64,000 nucleotides of DNA from Bolinopsis microptera (Eukaryota; Ctenophora; Tentaculata; Lobata; Bolinopsidae), in the NCBI RefSeq assembly GCF_026151205.1, contig NC_087072.1:19560103-19624102 (forward strand), read 5' to 3'. A program made the position numbers and the translations under genes. The notes beneath the pieces were generated by a model. That model was not told the DNA's origin. It saw nothing but the letters and a program-made list of their open reading frames with translations, and did no database searches. This document shows, piece after piece, positions 1 through 21,925 of the stretch (positions within the stretch are counted from its first letter, which is position 1; every line of letters starts with the position of its first letter).

Positions 1-523
1 TACCATAGGAATGTAAATATTTGGATCTATCATACATTCCACTTGTCATGTATCGTGCTCAGTATAATAGAGAAGTCTTATTTTGTGTGCCGGAATCAAA
101 TTGGTGGATTAGAGAACAGGTACAGAATCCATTTAAGTATTCCCAAATTGAAACGACACAATCGGACGCCAAATAAAATTCCCCGATTTACCATAGAGTC
201 TGGGGAAAATGAAAATAGTACAGTAAATTGGGGTTTTGATTTCGGAATTCCAGGTGAAACACATGATATTTCTCAGCACAATATTGGTTCCAAATCTGGG
301 CTTATGGTTGACAAGCACTCAAGTAAGCGTAGTTAGGGGGAAAACTAGCCTGACAACTCATGACAAGCTTGCTTGAATTGACGGTCCGTGTATAGAGCGT
401 AAAGGATCACGTGATGTCAAACTAAAATATTTATATTTTTTCAAAAATTTTGGGGGAACCCGAAGAGGTACAGTAAATCGGGGTTTGATGGTTAAAATCA
501 TGGTTTTACTGTAATAAACAAAC

Positions 524-1235
524 CTTTAGTGTGTCCCCTACAAGTTGTGACTGATCCATCAGGAACCTGATCGTTGTACACGATAAAGTTAGTACCGTGA
601 TCAGCGTCAGAGTAGATCGGTTCTAAAACTCGACCTGCTGGATTCTCTTTATCTGTCAGCTTGTAAGACCCTTTCTTCAGCTCACCTTCTACATTATCTG
701 AAATAATACAGTGTTATTGGAATTAAGCTTTAATGTTATAAGCTGTAATGACGTGAACTATTTAATAAAACACAAATGTAGATTATTGTACTGATAACAC
801 TAGTGTATATTTCTCTCGCTCTCTGATAATGTGCAGTCTACGACCCATCTGATAGCAGGCTTCAATGATCACTCCAGTAATATAAACCTTGGCAAATGTC
901 CAAAAGTAAATCTTGTACTGAAGTATTTATAAAACTTGGCAGATAAAAGGACGATAAATCTAGTCAGATAAATATAAACTGAGAGTTGACAGTTTGCAAA
1001 TTATCGGTAATCAGAGGATACAATTTACAGAACATTATCGTGTTTTGTACGAATGCGTTATAGTCGGGGGTTAAACATAAGACAGTGATTATAAAGGAGT
1101 AATACCTGCGTACAAGTAGTCGTAACCACCAGGCATCTTGAGCATGAGGAACCATGACCTCGCCTCCCCCTCTTCATTAACACATTTAGCAACAACCCCT
1201 GACGAGAGAACTAGCAAAACAAACAATCTCAACAT
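524..1235 (-). CDS. DNASE2: DNase II-like acid nuclease, first two exons (5' partial gene)
   Basis: Exon 1 runs 1235-1106 from the ATG and exon 2 runs 697-524; both introns are GT-AG and the phases agree (exon 1 ends with one base of a codon, completed by AT of exon 2). The product starts with a signal peptide (LRLFVLLVLSSGVVAK), then a Cys and WFLMLKMPGG, matching the start of the mature DNase II family (Cys, then WF and KLP). Exon 2 contains FIVYNDQVPDG and ends in CRGHTKG, close to the family's YNDQ and RGHTKG segments. DNase II is a secreted or lysosomal endonuclease active at low pH. The catalytic His and later exons are not present in 1-523, so the rest should lie left of the window. 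The start is supported by the signal peptide directly after it. Confidence 0.85.
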
Positions 1236-2051
1236 GACACTGTTGATTTGTAGGACTGTTCGAAAGTGTACAATGTAAGAAATGGTGCTCTGAGTACTGT
1301 GGTTTGTGTGTATCTGTGTGTATCTGTGGTTTATCGTGTACTGCGTTTTTTGCTTCCTTGTTAATCTAGCTCACGTTTTTTCCATTTGTAACACGATGCT
1401 TGGAGATATGACAGAGTTTTTCGTCAAGTGCGTCTCCTTTTATGGGATAAATTGTGATTTATGACGGGTTTTAAAGGTTATCATAGAACTGTTTCTGTGT
1501 TGACTGTTGTAACATTTTGCCATCAACACATAAAAATCACATTTTAAGCGGCGAACATAAAACTTAGCCTTGTCTGTGTGGTCTGGTCAATGAACACGAC
1601 AACTTATGTTAAAACTAAAGGTATAGGTTTAACTTAAAACTATACCTTTAGCTATACTACGTACCAAATACCTGGTACTCGTAACCACAGCTGGTAAATC
1701 ACATACAGTGGATGTTAAGTGTGCTATACTGAATACACTTAGCTTAGCAAGTGGTGTAATAGTTTTACAAACATCATGCATGGGAACAATACGCTTTAAA
1801 CCACATACTCGTAATATGAGACTTCCAATCTAACACTACTTCCAATCTAACACTACTTTACTATTACAGTAGTTATACTACTCGTAAAATGTACATACAC
1901 GTCTTATCGTGGGTGTCTAATGTGTATTTCCTATTATAATCATCATAAATTGGTTGCGTTTAAAGATATTAACTTTGTTATGATGTATTTGTGGATACTA
2001 CATGGCTTATTTTCATTAAGTTAACAGTTTTATCCCAGGCGCCTAAGTTAT
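1236..2051. other. Intergenic: DNase II upstream region
   Basis: No coding exon is supported here. A GT-rich TGTGTATCTGTGG stretch at about 1300-1325 sits just upstream of the DNase II start and may belong to its promoter. A short direct duplication of CTTCCAATCTAACACTA occurs near 1825-1855. Upstream UBE2W exons, which should precede 2499, were looked for and not found. Confidence 0.5.
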
Positions 2052-2525
2052 TTTTATAGGTGCCCTCCAATAAACCTGGCAGTTCTATTTCATGTAATGT
2101 TTATAGGTGATCCTTCAATAAACCCAGTTCTATTTCATGTAATGTTTATAGGTGATCCTCCAATAAACCCAGTTCTATTTCATGTAATGTTTATAGGTGA
2201 TCCTCCAATAAACCCAGTTCTATTTCAGGTAATGTTTATAGGTGATCCTCCAATAAACCCAGTTCTATTTCAGGTAATGTTTATAGGTGACCCTCCAATA
2301 AACCCAGTTCTATTTCAGGTAATGTTTATAGGTGACCCTCCAATAAACCCAGTTCTATTTCAGGTAATGTTTATAGGTGATCCTCCAATAAACCCAGTTC
2401 TATTTCAGGTAATGTTTATAGGTGACCCTCCAATAAACCCAGTTCTATTTCAGGTAATGTTTATAGGTGATCCTCCAATAAACCCAGTTCTATTTCAGGT
2501 AATGTTTATAGGTGACCCTCCAATG
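2052..2525 (+). repeat. 45-bp minisatellite spanning the UBE2W intron-exon junction
   Basis: Nine complete 45-bp units start at 2097 and every 45 bp after it. They are preceded by one decayed unit (about 2052-2096) and followed by a tenth partial unit that is the real start of the UBE2W exon (2499). Each unit reads without a stop as MFIGDPPINPVLFQV (first unit PS, first two ending HV). Each contains a pyrimidine-rich TTCTATTTC followed by AG or AT and then GTAATG. Seven units end with an intact CAG acceptor (AG at 2227, 2272, 2317, 2362, 2407, 2452 and 2497). The unit is therefore a copy of the 3' splice site plus the first part of the exon. Units differ by only a few bases, so amplification looks recent. 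Confidence 0.95.
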
Positions 2526-3265
2526 CACCCTCATGTCTACAGTAACGGACACATCTGTCTGTCCATCTTGACGGAGGATTGGTCCCCAGCTCTCAGTATT
2601 GAAACCATCTGTCTCTCAATACTCAGCATGCTCTCCAGCTGCACTGAAAAGGTATTTTTACTTAGATAATGTTAACTTATCACTGTTCAAGTGATGCTAC
2701 TAATACTTAGTATTACTTACACTGCCATAATATTATTATGTATGATAACTTGATAATGCTTCCTGTGTAAAGTATTATATTTAAGGAAATTGAGAATGTT
2801 GTTTTTCCTCATCGTTCAAAAAATCAACAACGAATAAAAATCGGTGTATATAATAAGATATCGATTTATTGCTCAGGATTCTATAACATAGAATCTATAT
2901 ATCCTATGATTGCATGATACGTAAGTTGCACCTACACATAATCTATGTCCCTATACGTGTTAGTAGTGTCAATAGTAGCGCGCAAAGCTGTTTTTGAGTA
3001 GATGCCGGCGTCCGGTATGCACTTAAATTATAAACAGTTGTCTACTATAATATTACACTTCTGTTTTTAATTGTATACAGTGATTTATAACATTTACCTG
3101 ATGAGAGAATAGGAAGAAAACACTCGCTGTAAGATAGATCCACTGTCTAATCTGTATCCAAGGTATTTAAATCAATATTGTCTTCTCAGGGGCGACCGCC
3201 TGGCAATGATTTTTACGTTCAGACTTGTCACAAGGACCCGAGGAAGACTCAGTGGTGGTATCACG
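2499..3265 (+). CDS. UBE2W: UBE2W-like ubiquitin-conjugating enzyme, C-terminal exons
   Basis: Exon 2499-2651 begins VMFIGDPPMHPHVYSNGH and continues through ICLSILTEDWSPALS to MLSSCTEK. Exon 3190-3265 encodes GRPPGNDFYVQTC and KTQWWYH. This matches the C-terminal half of UBE2W, the E2 that ubiquitinates protein N-termini; the catalytic Cys is the one in NGHICLSIL. Splice phases are 0 at 2499 and 2651/3190, and phase 1 at 3265. A possible last exon of eight bases (3392-3399, after TTATTTTAG) would give Asp-Phe-stop, where the vertebrate protein has a slightly longer acidic end; this is weak. The N-terminal half of the E2 fold (roughly the first 70 residues) is not found between 1236 and 2499, so the 5' exons lie elsewhere or this is a partial copy. 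The first exon here sits on a minisatellite of its own splice site. Confidence 0.88.
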
Positions 3266-5213: not shown

Positions 5214-8200
5214 TCAGTCATTGCAACTAAAGCACTCGTCCTCCTTGTCCTCGTCATGAAGAGATATGGAACTGAGTCTAACCGTGCTTGGGGGACATGT
5301 CCCTGTTAAGCAGTGAAGTGCTATTGCGTCGAACAGTTCTGGTATTCCCTCCCCAGTCTTGCTGCTTATTCTGTACGGTCCTCTCGCCCCTGAGTATGAC
5401 ATTTTGTGAGTTAGGTGGAATTGAAATGAGCTCTTGTCAGTTATTAGGTACAACGGAGCGATGCGACCCTAAAACATAGGAATAAATCAGAATGGGTTCC
5501 TCATCTAAATTATAATAATGATAATGATAAGCGATGACGTGGACTCACCTATCTTCTGTTTAAAAGTTAGGGCTTCTTGCTCAGATACCTCTTCAACGAT
5601 TCCGTCACATTCAAGTAAATCTATTTTAGTGGCGACTAGAAATACTCTGCAGGAGGGTTCATTCTGCCTCAATCTGTCCGCCCAGAACATGGCTCGGTCG
5701 AATGACTGCAAGGATACTGTCTCGTAGCATAGGATAGCTACCTGGGGAGACACTGAGCTGATTTATTGTCATTCACAGTTCAGATAAGCAAACAGATATA
5801 ATAGGTAGAGCTTAATTTGTACAGAACTTTTTGAAATTATCATGAAATTAAAGTCTGACTTTTGATGGAAACGGAATGGTTCATTCTGTTGTCTTTTATA
5901 GTATAGTATGAAACAAACTAAACACTTTAGTAAAGCTGATAAGCAGTAACTAGAACTACTTATCAAACAAAAATGCACTAATCGGTCTTAAAACTGCTGT
6001 GTCCCATTATTGTAAATTAATAACGCTAAGAATTCTTGTTAAAGTAGTGACGATAAACACTAAAAGCATAATATTATCTCTTCTACATATCAGGTTTATT
6101 TGTAAATACGACCAAATCTATCAAATAATCCAGGTTGCAAGTATAGATTATAAAATTGTTAAGATGCATGGTGTGAAATAAATAAACAAATTTACAAATT
6201 ACCGTTTTATCTCCATTCTATTAAGTCCCTAAACGTTAGTATTAAATTTTGAACAAAATATTGCTTCTTCCCTGTCCAATAAAATTGGTTTTGTTCTCTT
6301 AACGATCCCAAATCTAAAAGTTTCAAAATTAAAGATATTTCTGTGCTCAATATAACAGTGCATAGATAAGGCAGAATGTTCATAAATTTCTCGGTCATCT
6401 TAAATAAATTTACTACTAAAATAAAATTACTACGGATGTGAAAATTGGAGTGAGTGTCTGCCCGAAATAAGTGTCTTCGCGCCTGTGTGCAACATAGCTG
6501 ACACTGGGCAACATAGATAACGTGCTTGTCCTTGCATGTTAGAGTTCCGTCTAGCATCAGTTCTATGTTGTTGACCATGATCTTTGAGTCCTTGTCAAAC
6601 AGTACGGGGCAAGTCTTTCAGCCAGGTTCATTACACCTCTGTTGTCCTACAATCTACATCAATTAGGGTTCCCAGTTGTCGATTCATCACTAGTGTATTA
6701 CCGATCGAAGGGTGTTTCCTAGTGGCGAATACTATTCGTACATCCCAACATAACCTCTTAATGTCCGGATTAAGTTGTTCAACCAACACTTTAAGACCAA
6801 TGTTATCAAGAATAAACTCTGTTGTGTCTTATCCTATTATTAAATACAAATTACATTGTAACGTCGATTACTTGGGACTCTTGGGCCGTGGCCGTAAAAG
6901 AAGGGCATATTTCCCTGTAATCCCTAACACACTGCACACCAAAGTATGATTTACATTTTACATCCATCTGCACATAAACCCAGTTATCTAAATTATCGAA
7001 TTTTGGTGTATTAAACTCGAAGCCTAGTATGAGTAAATCGAGGGTTTGCTTAGTGGTCGTTCACATATTACGTAATCAGCCGAGAAATAACATTGACGTG
7101 TGACTATATTCATCAACTGGTTGTTTACTCATTGTCAAAGATTTATACCTGAGCATCTCGGTAGTAAAGCTTAGTCAAGGAATCAAACCGCTCGGCTCCA
7201 GAGGTGTCCCATACGTTCAGTTGGATTTTTTCCTCTTCTGAGAATGAGACCATTTTCGCTGTATAGGCCGCTCCTGAAAACAGCCCAATGAAATGGTAAG
7301 TTCCCTAACCACTAACAAAATTTGCAGTTATCTTCTAAGCGAAAGTGAGAAGCAGGAAACTTTTCGTCATGAACCCTGGTTATCACGGTTAAAGTGGAAC
7401 AGAAGTTAAAAATACGTGGTTGGCTTTATAATTATGTTCATTATTAACCCTGATAAAACTCGTTACTCGAAAATTATAAAAGGAACAGAGCATTAATTGA
7501 ATTCCATAATGAAGTGACCCTATCTAAATTAGGTTTTCCTAAAACCTTATCAGTAATAAGTTCATTGCAGGTATCGTGATGCACGATCAAGGGACACGTA
7601 AGTGACTTACTTACTGTGTCTAACAGGTTTTCCTATTTAAAGAAGCGCCCCCTTCAATTTTCTTCGGTCTCACACAGCAGCATCTTTAGTTTTTATGATT
7701 TGACTTTAAGAACCATTTCTCAATTCTCCAGCGCATTGTAAATTTATCATCGAACTTTAATTGTCCTTTATAACTATATCATTGTGTTTATAATACTTAT
7801 TCGTAACTTAAACCTAGCAACCGTCCCTCCCAGAATCTAGAAATGAAGGCGATATTAATGTGGCTGCTGTGGCTTGTAACGGTCACTACCTCACAAGATC
7901 AACAATCAATGCTTACCACCTCACAAGATGATTTAGTATTCTCCTTTGATATAAACTCCTTTCTTAAACACTACTTTGACAACATGATTGATGAAGCCAA
8001 AACAGAAGTCCGTGAGTCGTGGCTCTCTGAAGACGGTTTGTCTCTGAGATCAGAGGGCATGCAGAACCTGGCAGCTCTGGAAGCACTGTGTGACAATAGG
8101 GAGACTGTTATAGTTGGGAAGAGTTGCAGGGGGGAGTTTACAAAACTTGGGGATTGTGCTGATACTCCCTGTCGGGTGTTAGACTGGGCCAAAAACCAGG

Positions 8201-10959: not shown

Positions 10960-13900
10960 ATTTTAGCTTACCGCAACCAAAACTTCACTGTTCTGACGAA
11001 ATTTTCTTGAATGACCAATTATTGTGTTCACTATGGATGGCAGAAGACACAATTGAGGCACTAAAAGATACATAACCAAAGAAAGCTCTGACAAGCGGAA
11101 AATCGTCAGAATAGAAAGAAACATTTTGGAAGATTATTGAACAGAAGCTTAATACTGAATTTCTCACCCACAACCAATTAGTTAGTCAACTATAGATGGC
11201 ACATGACACGATTGAGGTTATGGAAATTTGATTTCGGTCGGAGGAAGCTCACTGCAGAAAGCTTAACAAAACGAAAATTCACATTTTCCAAATTCTGTCC
11301 CATTTTCAAATATGAAAATTTCTGAACACAAATTTGACAGATTGGATGGACCTTTTGCCCAGAGACCAATTAGTCAGTTAATTGATGATGGTATGAAACC
11401 AAATTGAATTACTGAAAGTCAAAATCCCGAAGAAAATTGAAAAATCATACTGCCCCAAATTCTGTCCCATTTTCAGTTTTTGAAGATGAAATTTCCAGGA
11501 CCGAAATTTTACAGTTTCTACTGAATTTCTCACCCACATTCAATTAATTAGTCAACTATAGATGGCATATGACACGATTGAGTTTCTGGAAATTTGATTT
11601 CGGTCGGAGGAAGCTCACTGCAGAAATCTTCACAAAACGAAAATTCACATTTTCCAAATTCTGTCCCATTTTCAAATATGAAAGTTCTGAACACAAATTT
11701 GACAGAATGGATGGAATTTTTGACCAGAGACCAATTAGTCAGTTAATTGATGATGGTAAGAAACCAAATTGAGTTACTGGAAGTCAAAATCCAGAAGAAA
11801 ATTGAAAAATCATACTGCCCCAAATTCTGTCCCATTTTCAGTTTTTTGAAGATGAAATTTCCAGGACCGAAATTTTACAGTTTCTACTGAATTTCTCACC
11901 CACATTCAATTTGTTAGTCAACTAGAGATGACATATGACACGATTGAGGTTCTAGAAATTTGATTTTGGTCGGAGTTAGCTCACTGCAGAAATCTTCACA
12001 AAACGAAAATTCACATTTTCCAAATTCTGTCCCATTTTCAAATATGAAAATTTCTGAACACTAATTTGACAGATTGGATGGAATTTTTGCCCAGAGACCA
12101 ATTAGTCAGTTAATTGATGATGGTAAGAAACCAAATTGAGTTACTTGAAGTCAAAATCCCGAAGAAAATTGAAAAATTATACTGCCCCAAATTCTGTCCC
12201 ATTTTCAGTTTTTGAAGATGAAATTTCCAGGACCGAAATTTTACAGTTTCTACTGAATTTCTCACCCACATTCAATTAATTAGTCAACTATAGATGAAAT
12301 ATGACACGATTGAGTTTCTGGAAATTTGATTTCGGTCGGAGGAAGCTCACTGCAGAAATCTTCACAAAACGAAAATTCACATTTTCCAAATTCTGTCCCA
12401 TTTTCAAATATGAAAATTTCTGAACACAAATTTGACAGAATGGATGGAATTTTTGACCAGAGACCAATTAGTCAGTTAATTGATGATGGTAAGAAACCAA
12501 ATTGAGTTACTGGAAGTCAAAATCCAGAAGAAAATTGAAAAATCGTACTGCCCCAAATTCTGTCCCATTTTCAGTTTTTGAAGATGAAATTTCCAGGACC
12601 GAAATTTTACAGTTTCTACTGAATTTCTCACCCACATTCAACTAGTTAGTCAACTACAGATGACATATGACACGATTGAGGTTCTAGAAATTTGATTTTG
12701 GTCGGAGTTAGCTCACTGCAGAAATCTTCACAAAACGAAAATTCACATTTTCCAAATTCTGTCCCATTTTCAAATGTGAAAATTTCTGAACACGAATTTG
12801 ACAGATTGGATGGAATTTTTGCCCAGAGACCAATTAGTCAGTTAATTGATGATGGTATGAAACCAAATTGAGTTACTGGAAGTCAAAATTGCGAAGAAAA
12901 TTGGAAAATCATACTGCCCCAAATTCTGTCCCATTTTCAGTTTTTGAAGATGAAATTTCCAGGACCGAAATTTTACAGTTTCTACTGAATTTCTCACCCA
13001 CATTCAATTAGTTAGTCAACTAGAGTTGACATATGACACGATTGAGGTTCTAGAAATTTGATTTTGGTCGGAGTTAGCTCACTGCAGAAATCTTCACAAA
13101 ACGAAAATTCACATTTTCCAAATTCTGTCCCATATTCAAATATGAAAATTTCTGAACACGAATTTGACAGATTGGATGGAATTTTTGCCCAGAGACGAAT
13201 TAGTCAGTTAATTGATGATGGTATAAAACCAAATTGAGTTACTGGAAGTCAAAATCCGGAAGAAAATTGAAAAATCATACTGCCCCAAATTCTGTCCCAT
13301 TTTCAGTTTTTGAAGATGAAATTTCCAGGACCGAAATTTTACAGTTTCTACCGAATTTCTCACCCACATTCAATTAGTTAGTCAACTATAGATGGCATAC
13401 CTATGACACGATTGAGGTTCTAGAAATTTGATTTCGGTCGGAGTTAGCTCACTGCAGAAATCTTCACAAAACGAAAATTCACATTTTCCAAATTCTGTCC
13501 CATTTTCAAATATGAATATTTCTGAACACGAATTTGACAGATTGGACGGAATTTTTGCCCAGAGACTAATTAGTCAGTTAATTGATGATGGTATAAAACC
13601 AAATTGAGTTACTGGAAGTCAAAATTCCGAAAAAAATTGGAAAATCATACTGCCCCAAATTCTGTCCCATTTTCAGTTTTTGAAGATGAAATTTCCAGGA
13701 CCGAAATTTTACAGTTTCTACTGAATTTCTCACCCACATTCAATTAGTTAGTCAACTATAGATGGCCCATGACACGATCGAGGTTCTGGAAATTTGATTT
13801 CGGTCGGAGTTAGCTCACTGCAGAAATCTTCACAAAACGAAAATTCACATTTTCCAAATTCTGTCCCATTTTCAAATATGAAAATTTCTGAACACAAATT

Positions 13901-14137
13901 TGACAGATTGGATGAATTTTTGCCCAGAGACCAATTAGTCAGTTAATTGATGATGGTATGAAACCAAATTGAGTTACTGGAAGTCAAAATCCGGAAGAAA
14001 ATTGAAAAATCATACTGCCCCAAATCCTGTCCAATTTTCAGTTTTTGAAGATGAAATTTCCAGGACCGAAATTTTACAGTTTCTACTGAATTTCTCACCC
14101 ACATTCAATTAATTAGTCAACTATAGATGGAATATGA
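10960..14137. repeat. Satellite array, block 1 (~366-bp monomer)
   Basis: Head-to-tail monomers repeat every 365-370 bp; the word GACACGATTGAG recurs near 11205, 11571, 11937, 12302, 12668, 13034, 13400 and 13770. Each monomer has two related halves. Half A starts CAATTAATTAGTCAACTATA and half B starts CAATTAGTCAGTTAATTGAT, and both contain CCAAATTCTGTCCCATTTTC. In one measured monomer A is 192 bp (12273-12464) and B 174 bp (12465-12638). Monomers differ by a few percent by eye. The leftmost monomers are the most diverged. Open frames inside are by-products of the repeat. Confidence 0.95.
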
Positions 14138-16101
14138 GGTCACGAAATCCTCTCCGAACCTCCACGTGGTGTGGCCTGGTTGGCACTAACGGGTGGTGTG
14201 CTCTCTTGTTGAGTACAAAGGTTGGGCCTTGCCAACTCAAAGTTCCCATAGGAACCAGGAAGTCAACACTAACAGCTACCAAGCACCAGGAAATTTCTCT
14301 TTCAGATATCAGGTTACAAGATAGTACACACACAAATGACGATACATTAGACACAGATACCTAGCTCTAAGAGCTACTAAATCACCAGGAAATTCTCTTT
14401 CAGCTTTCAGGTCCCATCGAAGTCACCCACCACAGAGCTAGGGATTCCAATTCGCTCATCCTGACTACAAGGACACACTGATAATGAGTAGTCCTGGCAC
14501 TTCTCCCTCCAGTAACCACTTTTCAGGTCTTTTCAGTTAAGACAGCTAATGCGTAAGGGCTGACACACGCTAGACACAGGCTCGTGATAAGACAGAATTA
14601 GGGATTTAAACTCTGACTACGAGGACACACTGATAGCGAGAATTCCTGGCACTTCTTCCTCCAGTAACCACTTTTCAGGGGACCGGGTTAGCTTTGCCAC
14701 ACTCTTCATTGAAGTGTGACTGGACGCTCTACAATCATCTAGTAGCAGCAGAGTTTGACTGACACCCTTACTGGTTCTATTCAGTTTCTACAGCGGAAGA
14801 TCTCAACACTCGAAAACAGTTCATCTCGGACATCCTGCAGAGCTGCTTTTTCACAGCCTGCCCCATTACACGGGGAATCCTTAGATCTACAGTACCCTGG
14901 TGGCGAGCATAGCTCACTAAAGCATAGTGGACCTCTTTAGTTCTGAGACGCAAAGCTAACCGGATCAGGAATAAACATCAATACAATGCTTAGGGGATGC
15001 AAATAGAACATACAATGTTTATCGAATGCATTACTCAATCTTTTGATTCATTTTTTTAGCTCGACGTTACATGGTAACATTTCAGGACTGACATTCCTCC
15101 TTCAGGTTAATTGAGGAAATCATACCCGCTATTTGCGTTATACATGGCAAGTATCTGGACTTATGATAACTTAGGATCTCCATCAATCATAAATTCCTCT
15201 CAGATTCCCAGGCTGCATTTAAAGCGCTTAACAGCACCAGTTTTAACTCCAGGTTCGTTCTGAACATCTCAGACCAACTCACTAGGTATTCACATCGAGT
15301 AGGACTTCGTTCCAGGACATTAAGGAGTATACGGTAAAGAACTAGCGGAAGAATTCGCAAGGGACGATCAATCCAACAACATCCCCATAGGACCAGAACC
15401 CTTCCTCCCAAATAGGCCACACTCAGTGACAAAGGAACATTCCACTTGTGATGTTCCTCCACAAATTAAATACAGGAACTTTTATTCTTCTGGAACTCAC
15501 ATCAGATGGCTAACATGGTCGCTTTCAGAATAGGTCACAGCCCACTAGTTTATTTTCAGAACGTGGCAAACAACGTCAACTTCAAGACGCAAGATTGCGA
15601 ACACTTTTCAGGAGAAGCAGCAACATCCCAGCACCTCCTCTACAATAGCATCCAGATCATGACGTTCAGAATGAGGATAATTGGTAAACTCTACCTACAT
15701 CATATCTTCAAATTTGTGGAACAGTCGACAAGACTGGATAGGGAAAACCCTTTTGGGTAACCTCCTTGGATTCTTCACCAGGAACTTTTGCTAAATCCCA
15801 TACTAGGAACTCAACCATCTCCGCATAGAGACATATCTCCCAGGCTTTGACCTTGCTCGGAAGTCCCTTGTCTACCCGCAGAAGTACTACAACGGAAGTG
15901 GGTTTGCTCTGAGACAGGTAGTGACAGCTTCAAGACTCCAGGGGTCTGTTGCATTGATATTTATTATTTTATGATTTCGTATATACTTTGGGAGTCCTGG
16001 CGTGCAGCTAGCAGGAGTTGCATTCTGTGGGCACGGTGAGAAGGCCTCCATCTTAACGTAAGAGGCCAGAAACCGTTGACCAGAACAGAGAGAGAGAGAG
16101 A
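14138..16101. mobile_element. 1.96-kb unclassified insertion in the satellite, 12-bp target duplication
   Basis: GATGGAATATGA occurs at 14126-14137 and again at 16102-16113, and satellite resumes immediately on each side, so the 1964 bp between are an insertion. The right end is a (GA)n run just before the second duplication, as expected for a retroposed sequence with a simple tail on the plus strand. Inside, a ~55-bp segment ending CCAGTAACCACTTTTCAGG is duplicated (about 14475 and 14630). I find no reverse transcriptase, integrase or tRNA-like promoter; 60-130 codon open frames exist but match nothing I know. It could be a non-autonomous retroposon or a processed transcript. Confidence 0.75.
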
Positions 16102-19100
16102 GATGGAATATGACACGATTGAGGATCTGGAAATTTGATTTCGGTCGGAGGAAGCTCACTGCAGAAATCTTCACAAAACGAAAATTCACATTTTCCAAAT
16201 TCTGTCCCATTTTCAAATATGAAAATTTCTGAACACTAATTTGACAGATTGGATGGAATTTTTGCCCAGAGACCAATTAGTCAGTTAATTGATGATGGTA
16301 AGAAAGCAAATTGAGTTACTTGAAGTCAAAATCCGGAAGAAAATTGAAAAATCATCTGCCCAAAATTCTGTCCCATTTTCAGTTTTTGAAGATGAAATTT
16401 CCAGGACCGAAATTTTACAGTTTCTACTGAATTTCTCACCCACATCTAATTAATTAGTCAACTATAGATGAAATATGACACGATTGAGGTTCTTGAAATT
16501 TGATTTCGGTCGGAGGAAGCTCACTGCAGAAATCTTCACAAAACGAAAATTCACATTTTCCAAATTCTGTCCCATTTTCAAATATGAAAATTTCTGAACA
16601 CAAATTTGACAGATTGGATGGAATTTTCGCCCAGAGACCAATTAGTCAGTTAATTGATGATGGTAAGAAAGCAAATTGAGTTACTGGAAGTCAAAATCCG
16701 GAAGATAATTGAAAAATCATACTGCCCCAAATTCTGTCCCATTTTCAGTTTTTGAAGATGAAATTTCCAGGACCGAAATTTTACAGTTTCTACTGAATTT
16801 CTCACCCACATTCAAATAATTAGTCAACTATAGATGGCATATGACACGATTGGGGTTCTGGAAATTTGATTTCGGTCGGAGGAAGCTCACTGCAGAAATC
16901 TTCACAAAACGAAAATTCACATTTTCCAAATTCTGTAGAATTTTCAAATATGAAAATTTCTGAACACTAATTTGACAGATTGGATGGAATTTTTGCCCAG
17001 AGACCAATTAGTCAGTTAATTGATGATGGTAAGAAACCAAATTGAGTTACTGGAATTGGAAGTCAAAATCCGGAAGAAAATTGAAAAATCATACTGCCCC
17101 AAATTCTGTCCCATTTTCAGTTTTTGAAGATGAAATTTCCAGGACCGAAATTTTACAGTTTCTACTGAATTTCTCACCCACATTCAAATAATTAGTCAAC
17201 TATAGATGGCATATGACACGATTGGGGTTCTGGAAATTTGATTTCGGTCGGAGGAAGCTCACTGCAGAAATCTTCACAAAACGAAAATTCACATTTTCCA
17301 AATTCTGTCCCATTTTCAAATATGAAAATTTCTGAACACAAATTTGACAGATTGGATGAATTTCTCACCCACAACCAATTAGTTAGTCAACTATAGATGG
17401 CACATGACATGATTGAGGTTCTGGAAATTTGATTTCGGTCAGAGTTAGCTCACTGCAGAAATCTTCAAAAAACGAAAATTCCCATTTTCCAAATTCTGTC
17501 CCATTTTCAAATATGAAAATTTCTGAACACGAATTTGACAGATTGGATGGAATTTTTGCCCACAGACCAATTAGTCAGTTAATTGATGATGGTATGAAAC
17601 CAAATTAAGGTACTGAAAGTCAAAATCCCGAAGAAAATTGAAAAATTATACTGCCCCAAATTCTGTCCCATTTTCAGTTTTTGAAGATGAAATTTCCAGG
17701 ACCGAAATTTTACAGTTTATACTGAATTTCTCACCCACATTCAATTAATTACTGAACTATAGATGGCATATGACACGATTGAGGTTCTGAAAATTTGATT
17801 TCGGTCGGAGGAAGCTCACCGCAGAAATCTTCACAAAACGAAAATTCACATTTTCCAAATTCTGTCCCATTTTTAAATATGAAAATTTCTGAACACTAAT
17901 TTGACAGATTGGATGGAATTTTTGCCCAGATACCAATTAGTCAGTTAATTGATGATGGTAAGAAACCAAATTGAGTTACTGGAAGTCAAAATCCGGAAGA
18001 AAATTGAAAAATCATACTGCCCCAAATTCTGTCCCATTTTCAGTTTTTGAAGATGAAATTTCCAGGACCGAAATTTTACAGTTTCTACTGAATTTCTCAC
18101 CCACATTCAAATAATTAGTCAACTATAGATGGCATATGACACGATTGGGGTTCTGGAAATTTGATTTCGGTCGGAGGAAGCTCACTGCAGAAATCTTCAC
18201 AAAACGAAAATTCACATTTTCCAAATTCTGTCCCATTTTCAAATATGAAAATTTCTGAACACTAATTTGACAGATTGGATGGAATTTTTGCCCAGAGACC
18301 AATTAGTCAGTTAATTGATGATGGTAAGAAACCAAATTGAGTTACTGGAATTGGAAGTCAAAATCCGGAAAAAAATTGAAAAATCATCTTGCCCCAAATT
18401 CTGTCCCATTTTCAGTTTTTGAAGATGAAATTTCCAGGACCGAAATTTTACAGTTTCTACTGAATTTCTCACCCACATTCAAATAATTAGTCAACTATAG
18501 ATGGCATATGACACGATTGAGGTTCTGGAAATTTGATTTCGGTCGGAGGAAGCTCACCGCAGAAATCTTCACAAAACGAAAATTCACATTTTCCAAATTC
18601 TGTCCCATTTTCAAATATGAAAATTTCTGAACACTAATTTGACAGATTGGATGGAATTTTTGCCCAGAGACCAATCAGTCAGTTAATTGATGATGGTAAG
18701 AAACCAAATTGAGTTACTGGAAGTCAAAATCCGGAAGATAATTGAAAAATCATACTGCCCCAAATTCTGTCCCATTTTCAGTTTTTGAAGATGAAATTTC
18801 CAGGACCGAAATTTTACAGTTTCTACTGAATTTCTCACCCACATTCAAATAATTAGTCAACTATAGATGGCATATGACACGATTGGGGTTCTGGAAATTT
18901 GATTTCGGTCGGAGGAAGCTCACTGCAGAAATCTTCACAAAACGAAAATTCACATTTTCCAAATTCTGTAGAATTTTCAAATATGAAAATTTCTGAACAC
19001 TAATTTGACAGATTGGATGGAATTTTTGCCCAGAGACCAATTAGTCAGTTAATTGATGATGGTAAGAAACCAAATTGAGTTACTGGAATTGGAAGTCAAA

Positions 19101-21925
19101 ATCCGGAAGAAAATTGAAAAATCATACTGCCCCAAATTCTGTCCCATTTTCAGTTTTTGAAGATGAAATTTCCAGGACCGAAATTTTACAGTTTCTACTG
19201 AATTTCTCACCCACATTCAAATAATTAGTCAACTATAGATGGCATATGACACGATTGGGGTTCTGGAAATTTGATTTCGGTCGGAGGAAGCTCACTGCAG
19301 AAATCTTCACAAAACGAAAATTCACATTTTCCAAATTCTGTCCCATTTTCAAATATGAAAATTTCTGAACACAAATTTGACAGATTGGATGAATTTCTCA
19401 CCCACAACCAATTAGTTAGTCAACTATAAATGGCACATGACATGATTGAGGTTCTGGAAATTTGATTTCGGTCAGAGTTAACTCACTGCTGAAATCTTCA
19501 AAAAACGAAAATTCACATTTTCCAAATTCTGTCCCATTTTCAAATATGAAAATTTCTGAACACGAATTTGACAGATTGGATGGAATTTTTGCCCACAGAC
19601 CAATTAGTCAGTTAATTGATGATGGTATGAAACCAAATTAAGGTACTGAAAGTCAAAATCCCGAAGAAAATTGAAAAATTATACTGCCCCAAATTCTGTC
19701 CCATTTTCAGTTTTTGAAGATGAAATTTCCAGGACCGAAATTTTACAGTTTCTACTGAATTTCTCACCCACATTCAAATAATTAGTCAACTATAAATGGC
19801 ATATGACACGATTGGGGTTCTGGAAATTTGATTTCGGTCGGAGGAAGCTCACTGCAGAAATCTTCACAAAACGAAAATTCACATTTTCCAAATTCTGTAG
19901 AATTTTCAAATATGAAAATTTCTGAACACTAATTTGACAGATTGGATGGAATTTTTGCCCACAGACCAATTAGTCAGTTAATTGATGATGGTATGAAACC
20001 AAATTAAGGTACTGAAAGTCAAAATCCCGAAGAAAATTGAAAAATTATACTGCCCCAAATTCTGTCCCATTTTCAGTTTTTGAAGATGAAATTTCCAGGA
20101 CCGAAATTTTACAGTTTATACTGAATTTCTCACCCACATTCAATTAATTACTGAACTATAGATGGCATATGACACGATTGAGGTTCTGAAAATTTGATTT
20201 CGGTCGGAGGAAGCTCACCGCAGAAATCTTCACAAAACGAAAATTCACATTTTCCAAATTCTGTCCCATTTTCAAATATGAAAATTTCTGAACACTAATC
20301 TGACAGATTGGATGGAATTTTTGCCCAGAGACCAATTAGTCAGTTAATTGATGATGGTAAGAAACCAAATTGAGTTACTGGAAGTCAAAATCCGGAAGAA
20401 AATTGAAAAATCATACTGCCCCAAATTCTGTCCCATTTTCAGTTTTTGAAGATGAAATTTCCAGGACCGAAATTTTACAGTTTCTACTGAATTTCTCACC
20501 CACATTCAAATAATTAGTCAACTATAGATGGCATATGACACGATTGGGGTTCTGGAAATTTGATTTCGGTCGGAGGAAGCTCACTGCAGAAATCTTCACA
20601 AAACGAAAATTCACATTTTCCAAATTCTGTCCCATTTTCAAATATGAAAATTTCTGAACACTAATCTGACAGATTGGATGGAATTTTTGCCCAGAGACCA
20701 ATTAGTCAGTTAATTGATGATGGTAAGAAACCAAATTGAGTTACTGGAATTGGAAGTCAAAATCCGGAAGAAAATTGAAAAATCATCTTGCCCCAAATTC
20801 TGTCCCATTTTCAGTTTTTGAAGATGAAATTTCCAGGACCGAAATTTTACAGTTTCTACTGAATTTCTCACCCACATTCAAATAATTAGTCAACTATAGA
20901 TGGCATATGACACGATTGGGGTTCTGGAAATTTGATTTCGGTCGGAGGAAGCTCACTGCAGAAATCTTCACAAAACGAAAATTCACATTTTCCAAATTCT
21001 GTCCCATTTTCAAATATGAAAATTTCTGAACACAAATTTGACAAATTGGATGGTTTTTTTTGCCCAGAGACCAATTAGTCAGTTAATTGATGATGGTATG
21101 AAACCAAATTAAGGTACTGAAAGTCAAAATCCCGAAGAAAATTGAAAAATCGTACTGCCCCAAATTCTGTCCCATTTTCAGTTTTTGAAGATGAAATTTC
21201 CAGAACCGAAATTTTACAGTTTATACTGAATTTCTCACCCACATTCAATTAATTAGTCAACTATAGATGGCATATGACACGATTGATGTTAGACTGGAAA
21301 TTTGATTTCGGTCGGAGGAAGCTCACTGCAGAAATCTTCACAAAACGAAAATTCATATTTTCCAAATTCTGTCCCATTTTCAAATATGAAAATTTCTGAA
21401 CACAAATTTGACAGATTGGATTAATTTCTCACCCACAACCAATTAGTTAGTCAACTATAGATGGCACATGACACGATTGAGGTTCTGGAAATTTGATTTC
21501 GGTCGGAGTTAGCTCACTGCAGAAATCTTCACAAAACGAAAATTCACATTTTCCAAATTCTGTCCCATTTTCAAATATGAAAATTTCTGAACACAAATTT
21601 GACAGATTGGATGGAATTTTTGCCCAGAGACCAATCAGTCAGTTAATTGATGATGGTATGAAACCAAATTAAGGTACTGATAGTCAAAATCCCGAAGAAA
21701 ATTGAAAAATTATACTGCCCCAAATTCTGTCCCATTTTCAAATATGAAAATTTCTGAACACAAATTTGACAGATTGGATGAATTTTTTGCCGAGAGACCG
21801 ATTAGTCAGTAATTGATGATGGTATGAAACCAAATTGAGGTACTAGAAGTCAAAATTCCGAAGAAAATTGAAAGATCGTACTGTCCCAAATTCTGTCCCA
21901 TATTTAGTTTTTTTTAAATCAAGAC
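16102..21925. repeat. Satellite array, block 2, with higher-order repeats and half-monomers
   Basis: Same ~366-bp satellite as block 1 but more uniform. A ~2033-bp superunit repeats: the marker ATTCTGTAGAATTTTC at about 16935 recurs at about 18968 (again near 19900), and the short junction TTGGATGAATTTCTCACCC at about 17352 recurs at about 19385, with a similar one near 21418. At those junctions half A runs straight into the next A, with half B missing, giving half-length monomers. This is what unequal exchange between the two related halves would produce. No transcript feature is evident. Confidence 0.9.

Follow-up and report, generated by a model that had tools for sequence, protein, structure and literature searches.

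The boundary between intron 2 and exon 3 of the E2 gene UBE2W in the ctenophore Bolinopsis microptera is multiplied into a 45-bp tandem array. Judging from its sequence and from comparison with similar arrays described in amphioxus, we think it likely that this array is a boundary-spanning minisatellite of the "mirage" type, spliced mostly at its last acceptor (position 2498) and nearly silent. A broader claim, namely that splice-spanning arrays are common in this ctenophore and that the last acceptor is dependably the one spliced, even where as many as 74 identical copies stretch over 3.4 kb, is put forward here tentatively, and we consider it rather doubtful. Unless a locus or contig is named, positions are those of the window, by which we mean the whole 64,000-nt stretch of DNA that was analyzed (GC content 38.0%, against 38.5% given for the B. 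microptera genome; PMC11797021). A glutamate receptor encoded in the assembly was closest in the PDB to the Mnemiopsis receptor ML032222a and to 4zdm, from Pleurobrachia (116 and 104 bits, compared with 67 for the next entry), and the best match in the genome to the Mnemiopsis receptor piece was 77% identical, in keeping with Bolinopsis and not Mnemiopsis.

The UBE2W splice sites were placed from sequence and homology. The exon downstream of the repeat had been identified as UBE2W in an initial annotation, and this was borne out: exons 3 and 4 matched UBE2W (PDB 2mt6, E = 9.5e-40, 76 residues aligned), and a Pfam UQ_con match supported the E2 identity of exon 3. Both the UBC sequence containing HPHVYSNGHICLSIL and the WWYH tract at the C terminus of UBE2W were recovered in the alignment to PDB 2mt6. 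Exons 1 and 2 lie to the left of the window (L009 6596–6702 and 6848–6950), while exon 3 (VMFIGDPPMHPHVYSNGHICLSIL...SSCTEK, donor AAAAG/GTATTT, the slash marking the splice junction) and exon 4 (GRPPGNDFYVQTCHKDPRKTQWWYH) occupy 2499–2651 and 3190–3265 on the plus strand. Intron 2, with donor CCCATA/GTAAGT and acceptor TTTCAG/GTAATG, is ~5,451 nt long, of which the part at 1–2498 (plus strand) falls within the window. The four joined exons gave 146 UBE2W residues with phases intact, reading MDFAQKRLTRELK...EAPI/VMFIGDPPMHPHVYSNGHICLSIL...WWYH with phase 0 at 2498/2499; the last exon, in which the final few codons are expected, was not located in this gene model. In a search of the assembly, the six matches other than UBE2W coincided with listed E2-family (UQ_con) matches.

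A DNase II-like gene is nested in intron 2 on the opposite strand (window 506–1370, L009:9142–9885), and two of its open frames matched Pfam DNase_II (E = 2.6e-65 and 1.6e-10). One minus-strand open frame with a DNase II-like exon lies at 506–713, and a probable first exon, judged by eye, lies in the minus-strand open frame at 1089–1370. At the coding end of this gene, beginning at its last codons and stop, we observed a 23-bp array of 4.7 copies (L009:9057–9165, 100% identical), and the same UBE2W intron holds (CTACACA)n at L009:7456–7641 (26.6 copies, 98% matches). Elsewhere in the window, exons of a Ras-family gene lie downstream of UBE2W on the minus strand (5505–7304), and large tandem arrays occupy 11153–21901 in two blocks, mostly of a 366-bp unit.

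TRF placed the UBE2W array at 2053–2524 (10.4 copies, 96% matches), with a score of 847 that was the highest in the window among periods below 100. When anchored on GTAATG, positions 2094–2498 resolve into nine units of exactly 45 bp (GTAATGTTTATAGGTGAYCCTCCAATAAACCCAGTTCTATTTCAG), each combining the opening 26 nt of exon 3 with the 19 nt that end the intron. These are preceded by a degenerate 41-bp first unit (2053–2093, plus strand) and followed by a terminal partial copy, the 26 nt supplied by the true start of exon 3 at 2499. TRF and the unit count agree on what had been described initially, a minisatellite made of intron end and exon start whose nine units adjoin the true exon. TTTCAG ends at 2228, 2273, 2318, 2363, 2408, 2453 and 2498, with TTTCAT instead at 2093, 2138 and 2183, so that the degenerate unit and full units 1 and 2 (2094–2183, plus strand) have no such acceptor. 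Seven of the nine full units keep TTTCAG: units 3–8 (2184–2453, plus strand) carry six decoys, and unit 9 (2454–2498, plus strand) ends in what is presumably the native 3′ splice site of intron 2, and the earlier count of seven copies with an intact CAG is right when this native acceptor is included. All seven read TTTCAG/GTAATG, with AG/GT at the join. The nine full units vary at three positions, namely 18 (T/C), 22 (C/T, in one copy) and 45 (G/T, in two copies). The edge units, i.e., the degenerate unit and full units 1 and 2 with their CAT and other changes, are the most altered, and the seven inner units (3–9) vary at position 18 alone, as expected for tandem-repeat turnover. Using a search method that can miss repeats, we found the array at a single locus of the 264.65-Mb assembly.

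The array is open in frame 0 and contains stops in the other five frames, confirming the initial observation that the unit amounts to 15 codons without a stop. Its copies had also been predicted to extend the protein in frame by multiples of 15 residues, and indeed, the frame stayed open whichever of the six TTTCAG decoys exon 2 was joined to (6/6), the additions being 15, 30, 45, 60, 75 or, at most, 90 residues. Of the 27 AGs in the array, the 20 that are not part of TTTCAG (mostly CCCAG and TATAG) each cause a frameshift and run into a stop. We also tried two AGs that precede the array: the one at 2027 gives an open, in-frame reading, and the second does not. We also estimated how often an open unit would arise by accident. 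When the 26 exonic nucleotides were joined to any 19-nt piece of the window ending in YAG, the frame was open in 725 of 1761 cases, which, multiplied by one third for length, gives a chance of ~14% (about one in seven) and makes the in-frame openness of the UBE2W unit unremarkable. The six decoys share their local sequence with the true acceptor, and therefore nothing in the sequence itself accounts for the last acceptor winning. The array RNA folded no better than shuffled versions of itself (z = +1.54; 18 of 20 shuffles folded at least as well), leaving a role as structural decoy or shield without support. A match of the repeat peptide to DUF7419 (22.3 bits) fell below the 27-bit cut-off and was taken as chance.

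All 42 listed E2-family model matches, a few of which look like allelic pairs, were examined for similar arrays, and two E2 genes besides UBE2W were found to carry them at splice sites. We take these genes to be UBE2G2-like and UBE2G1-like, on the basis of UBE2G1 and UBE2G2 sequence motifs. The UBE2G2-like gene has 74 copies of the acceptor CGGCAG/GTTCTC (C12:14320592–14324023; L059, L032) in 47-bp units with 99% matches, each unit deriving 34 nt from the start of the exon and 13 nt from the end of the intron. Its acceptors keep a strict 47-bp spacing up to the true exon at C12:14324023, and the array occupies 3,431 of the 3,557 nt of its intron. Not one of its 73 decoys combines the right frame with an open reading; the nearest one shifts the frame, yet meets no stop inside the exon. 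The UBE2G1-like gene has an intron that is multiplied at its two ends (C2:10879747–10879957 and 10884597–10884811, minus strand; L072, L077). At the acceptor end, four copies of ACAG/TTGAAA, with no GT after the CAG, lie 63 bp apart, and read-through hits a stop in each of the three decoys (0/3 readable). At the donor end, GTACGTA occurs six times in 35-bp units (35–38-bp spacing) that are almost entirely intronic, having ATG alone in common with the exon end.

A further acceptor-spanning array, with a 40-bp unit and three CAG acceptors, was present at a Rab-like exon (L118:102–239; C11:1541502–1542076), and both of its decoys meet stops (0/2 readable). This was the one acceptor array among 40 Ras-family exon matches, a non-random sample picked by hand from 152, with short matches, obvious duplicates and some others skipped. 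Another Rab-like gene (L088; C8:11918457–11919055) has its exon end duplicated across the donor in two copies, which is perhaps the seed stage of a boundary-spanning array. Around 25 kinase loci, taken from 136 listed matches, no array with a period of 9 or more and 2.5 or more copies occurred 60 bp or less from the match, although this is a weak control because most of the matches span the whole domain in one frame. Among 24 proteasome matches, 14 had coverage that included 100 bp or more of flank, and none of these showed a boundary-spanning array. Several other candidates were rejected as boundary-spanning: the arrays at L017, L033, L080 and L105 are intronic, that at L071 begins just past the donor, and a 34-bp array of 6.1 copies at L085:1–206 is upstream of a start codon. 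The last of these ends a few bases 5′ of this codon, the probable start of a Rho/Rac-like exon (named by eye).

A shuffle test of array positions used 81 exons (30 E2, 11 proteasome and 40 Ras), a sample from which kinase and receptor loci, allelic-looking loci and second exons on a shared locus had been dropped. Exon ends were approximated by match ends and the flanking sequence measured 220 or up to 700 bp; the limits of the sequence used cut the UBE2G2-like array short. Of 12 arrays, eight were no more than 15 bp from the edge of a match, compared with a shuffled mean of 5.5, and the fraction of shuffles reaching this number was 0.07, which is not significant; a preference of arrays for splice sites is thus not demonstrated. 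Put plainly, minisatellites seem to form frequently in this genome, and those situated on the intronic side of a boundary persist.

The closest known counterparts are the amphioxus mirages, which are described as tandem repeats of the intron-exon boundary, many with AG/GT splice signals, in Adh3, the globin genes BflGb6 and BflGb9, and troponin C, with similar imperfect repeats in PGBD5 (PMC3087553, PMC3902484). According to the same reports, mirages are known on both the acceptor and the donor side, evolve in concert inside clusters with the boundary units left out, and are unstable in length, while normal splicing is reported to be undisturbed (PMC3087553, PMC3902484). The UBE2W array resembles them in that its unit spans the exon-intron boundary (26 nt of exon and 19 nt of intron), many of its copies keep AG/GT, the authentic boundary is the last copy, and its inner units are homogenised while its edge units diverge. 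It differs in being from a ctenophore rather than a cephalochordate, and in having a unit that is in frame and open. As for scale, the UBE2G2-like gene has 74 acceptors, whereas the two BflGb6 haplotypes described have 6 and 3 repeat units; furthermore, instability and regular splicing are reported for amphioxus, whereas the ctenophore arrays are known from the sequence of one assembly. In the mainly non-subscription literature that we searched, we recognised multi-copy boundary-spanning minisatellites in the amphioxus papers only and came across no ctenophore example. What appears to be new here is the phylum and, in the UBE2G2-like gene, the scale, within the known mirage type. Neighbouring acceptors of the NAGNAG type are another familiar arrangement in which alternative use would add whole codons; the UBE2W acceptors differ from these in their 45-bp spacing, their seven copies and their minisatellite origin.

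The initial annotation had proposed that the array creates a length-variable enzyme or a splice decoy array. On the first of these readings, several decoys would be used appreciably to yield UBE2W isoforms 15–90 residues longer (VMFIGDPPINPVLFQ repeats) that vary between animals. Each copy does have an identical acceptor sequence, all six TTTCAG decoys are in frame without stops, and an in-frame open unit is what a protein-length device would need. As a designed or selected device, however, this idea is not supported, since the three sibling arrays in the same genome shift the frame or contain stops, accidental openness would be expected about once in seven, and amphioxus arrays are reported not to disturb splicing (PMC3087553, PMC3902484). 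In addition, the insert would duplicate residues aligned with the conserved VMFTG segment in the solved structure of UBE2W, just before HPHVYSNGHIC. We therefore regard appreciable use of several decoys as unlikely. Intron removal in steps is less probable still. In long introns of Drosophila, recursive splicing is described at ratchet points, where an acceptor directly abuts donor-like sequence (PMC8605326), and TTTCAG/GTAATG could in the same way serve as a joined acceptor and donor, allowing the array to be removed stepwise until exon 3. Acceptor and donor-like sequence are indeed juxtaposed at seven places inside this long intron, and since exon 2 ends in ATA/GTAAGT, a junction with a decoy would read ATA/GTAATG. 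AG/GT is also present in the UBE2G2-like and Rab-like arrays, though GTTCTC is, by eye, a poor-looking donor. Unlike ratchet points, however, the UBE2W sites are seven identical copies, made by duplication and spaced at 45 bp within an intron of 5.45 kb; one-unit steps would imply 45-nt introns, AG/GT arises simply because the exon itself begins with GT, and the UBE2G1-like acceptors (ACAG/TTGAAA), which have no GT, mean that this cannot be a general solution.

We also considered whether the array might be an early step by which tandem duplication creates an intron or exon (the Rogers/AGGT model or boundary duplication), a copy being recruited into a new intron or to serve as a mini-exon. Potato RdRp, ATP2A1 and 24-bp AGGT repeats in two fission-yeast genes are given as cases of intron gain (PMC4974935). 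In potato, a two-copy tandem duplication crossing an intron-exon boundary gave a new intron (PMC4974935), and in fission yeast an AGGT segment is repeated several times; the authors of one amphioxus study propose the same origin of introns for mirages (PMC3087553). The UBE2W array shares with the AGGT model the AG/GT at the join of its seven CAG units, GT following every TTTCAG, and a link to intron gain of this kind is, by analogy, a possibility. Those cases have a new intron, however, and their AGGT repeats are exonic, whereas the UBE2W unit is part exon and part intron and occurs in many copies. There is no sign of a fixed new exon, and the copies are near-identical and presumably young, making intron gain under way at this locus very improbable.

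We thus favor a mirage-type array that is nearly silent. Its history would have begun with tandem duplication of a 45-bp piece of the boundary, which slippage or unequal exchange could then have multiplied, and with all extra copies on the intron side, the true exon start would be the last copy. Most likely, the spliceosome mainly picks the exon-proximal acceptor at 2498, a conclusion that we draw from the amphioxus precedent and from the frame-breaking sibling arrays: since the decoys of the siblings are unreadable, the UBE2G2-like, UBE2G1-like and Rab-like genes would fail if decoys dominated. The animal itself could carry a shorter allele absent from this assembly. Leaky use of the TTTCAG decoys may yield low levels of UBE2W carrying 15n additional residues ahead of the active-site region, and such products would be readable because the unit happens to be 15 open codons. 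As the junction of exon 2 with a decoy would recreate the donor-like ATA/GTAATG, some decoy use might even be corrected, but given the UBE2G1-like copies without GT after the CAG, re-splicing through a recreated donor could not be general. Our preferred guess as to why the last of several identical copies wins is exon definition.

That a modest sample of a ctenophore genome contains four arrays at acceptors and one at a donor suggests that a recurrent process operates in this distant animal phylum. The UBE2G2-like array, with 74 identical acceptors and none of its 73 decoys readable, constitutes a natural experiment on 3′ splice-site choice. Long-read RNA data (Iso-Seq) have already been made for Bolinopsis, along with RNA-seq and PacBio genomic reads at over 70x (PMC10232365), and the question of which acceptors are chosen should be answerable with these existing data. 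If the broader claim is true, a 3′ splice site would be chosen for its proximity to the exon, as in exon definition, and not for being the first AG encountered. UBE2W would then be a gene in which errors of acceptor choice can be read as proteins with 15n additional residues.
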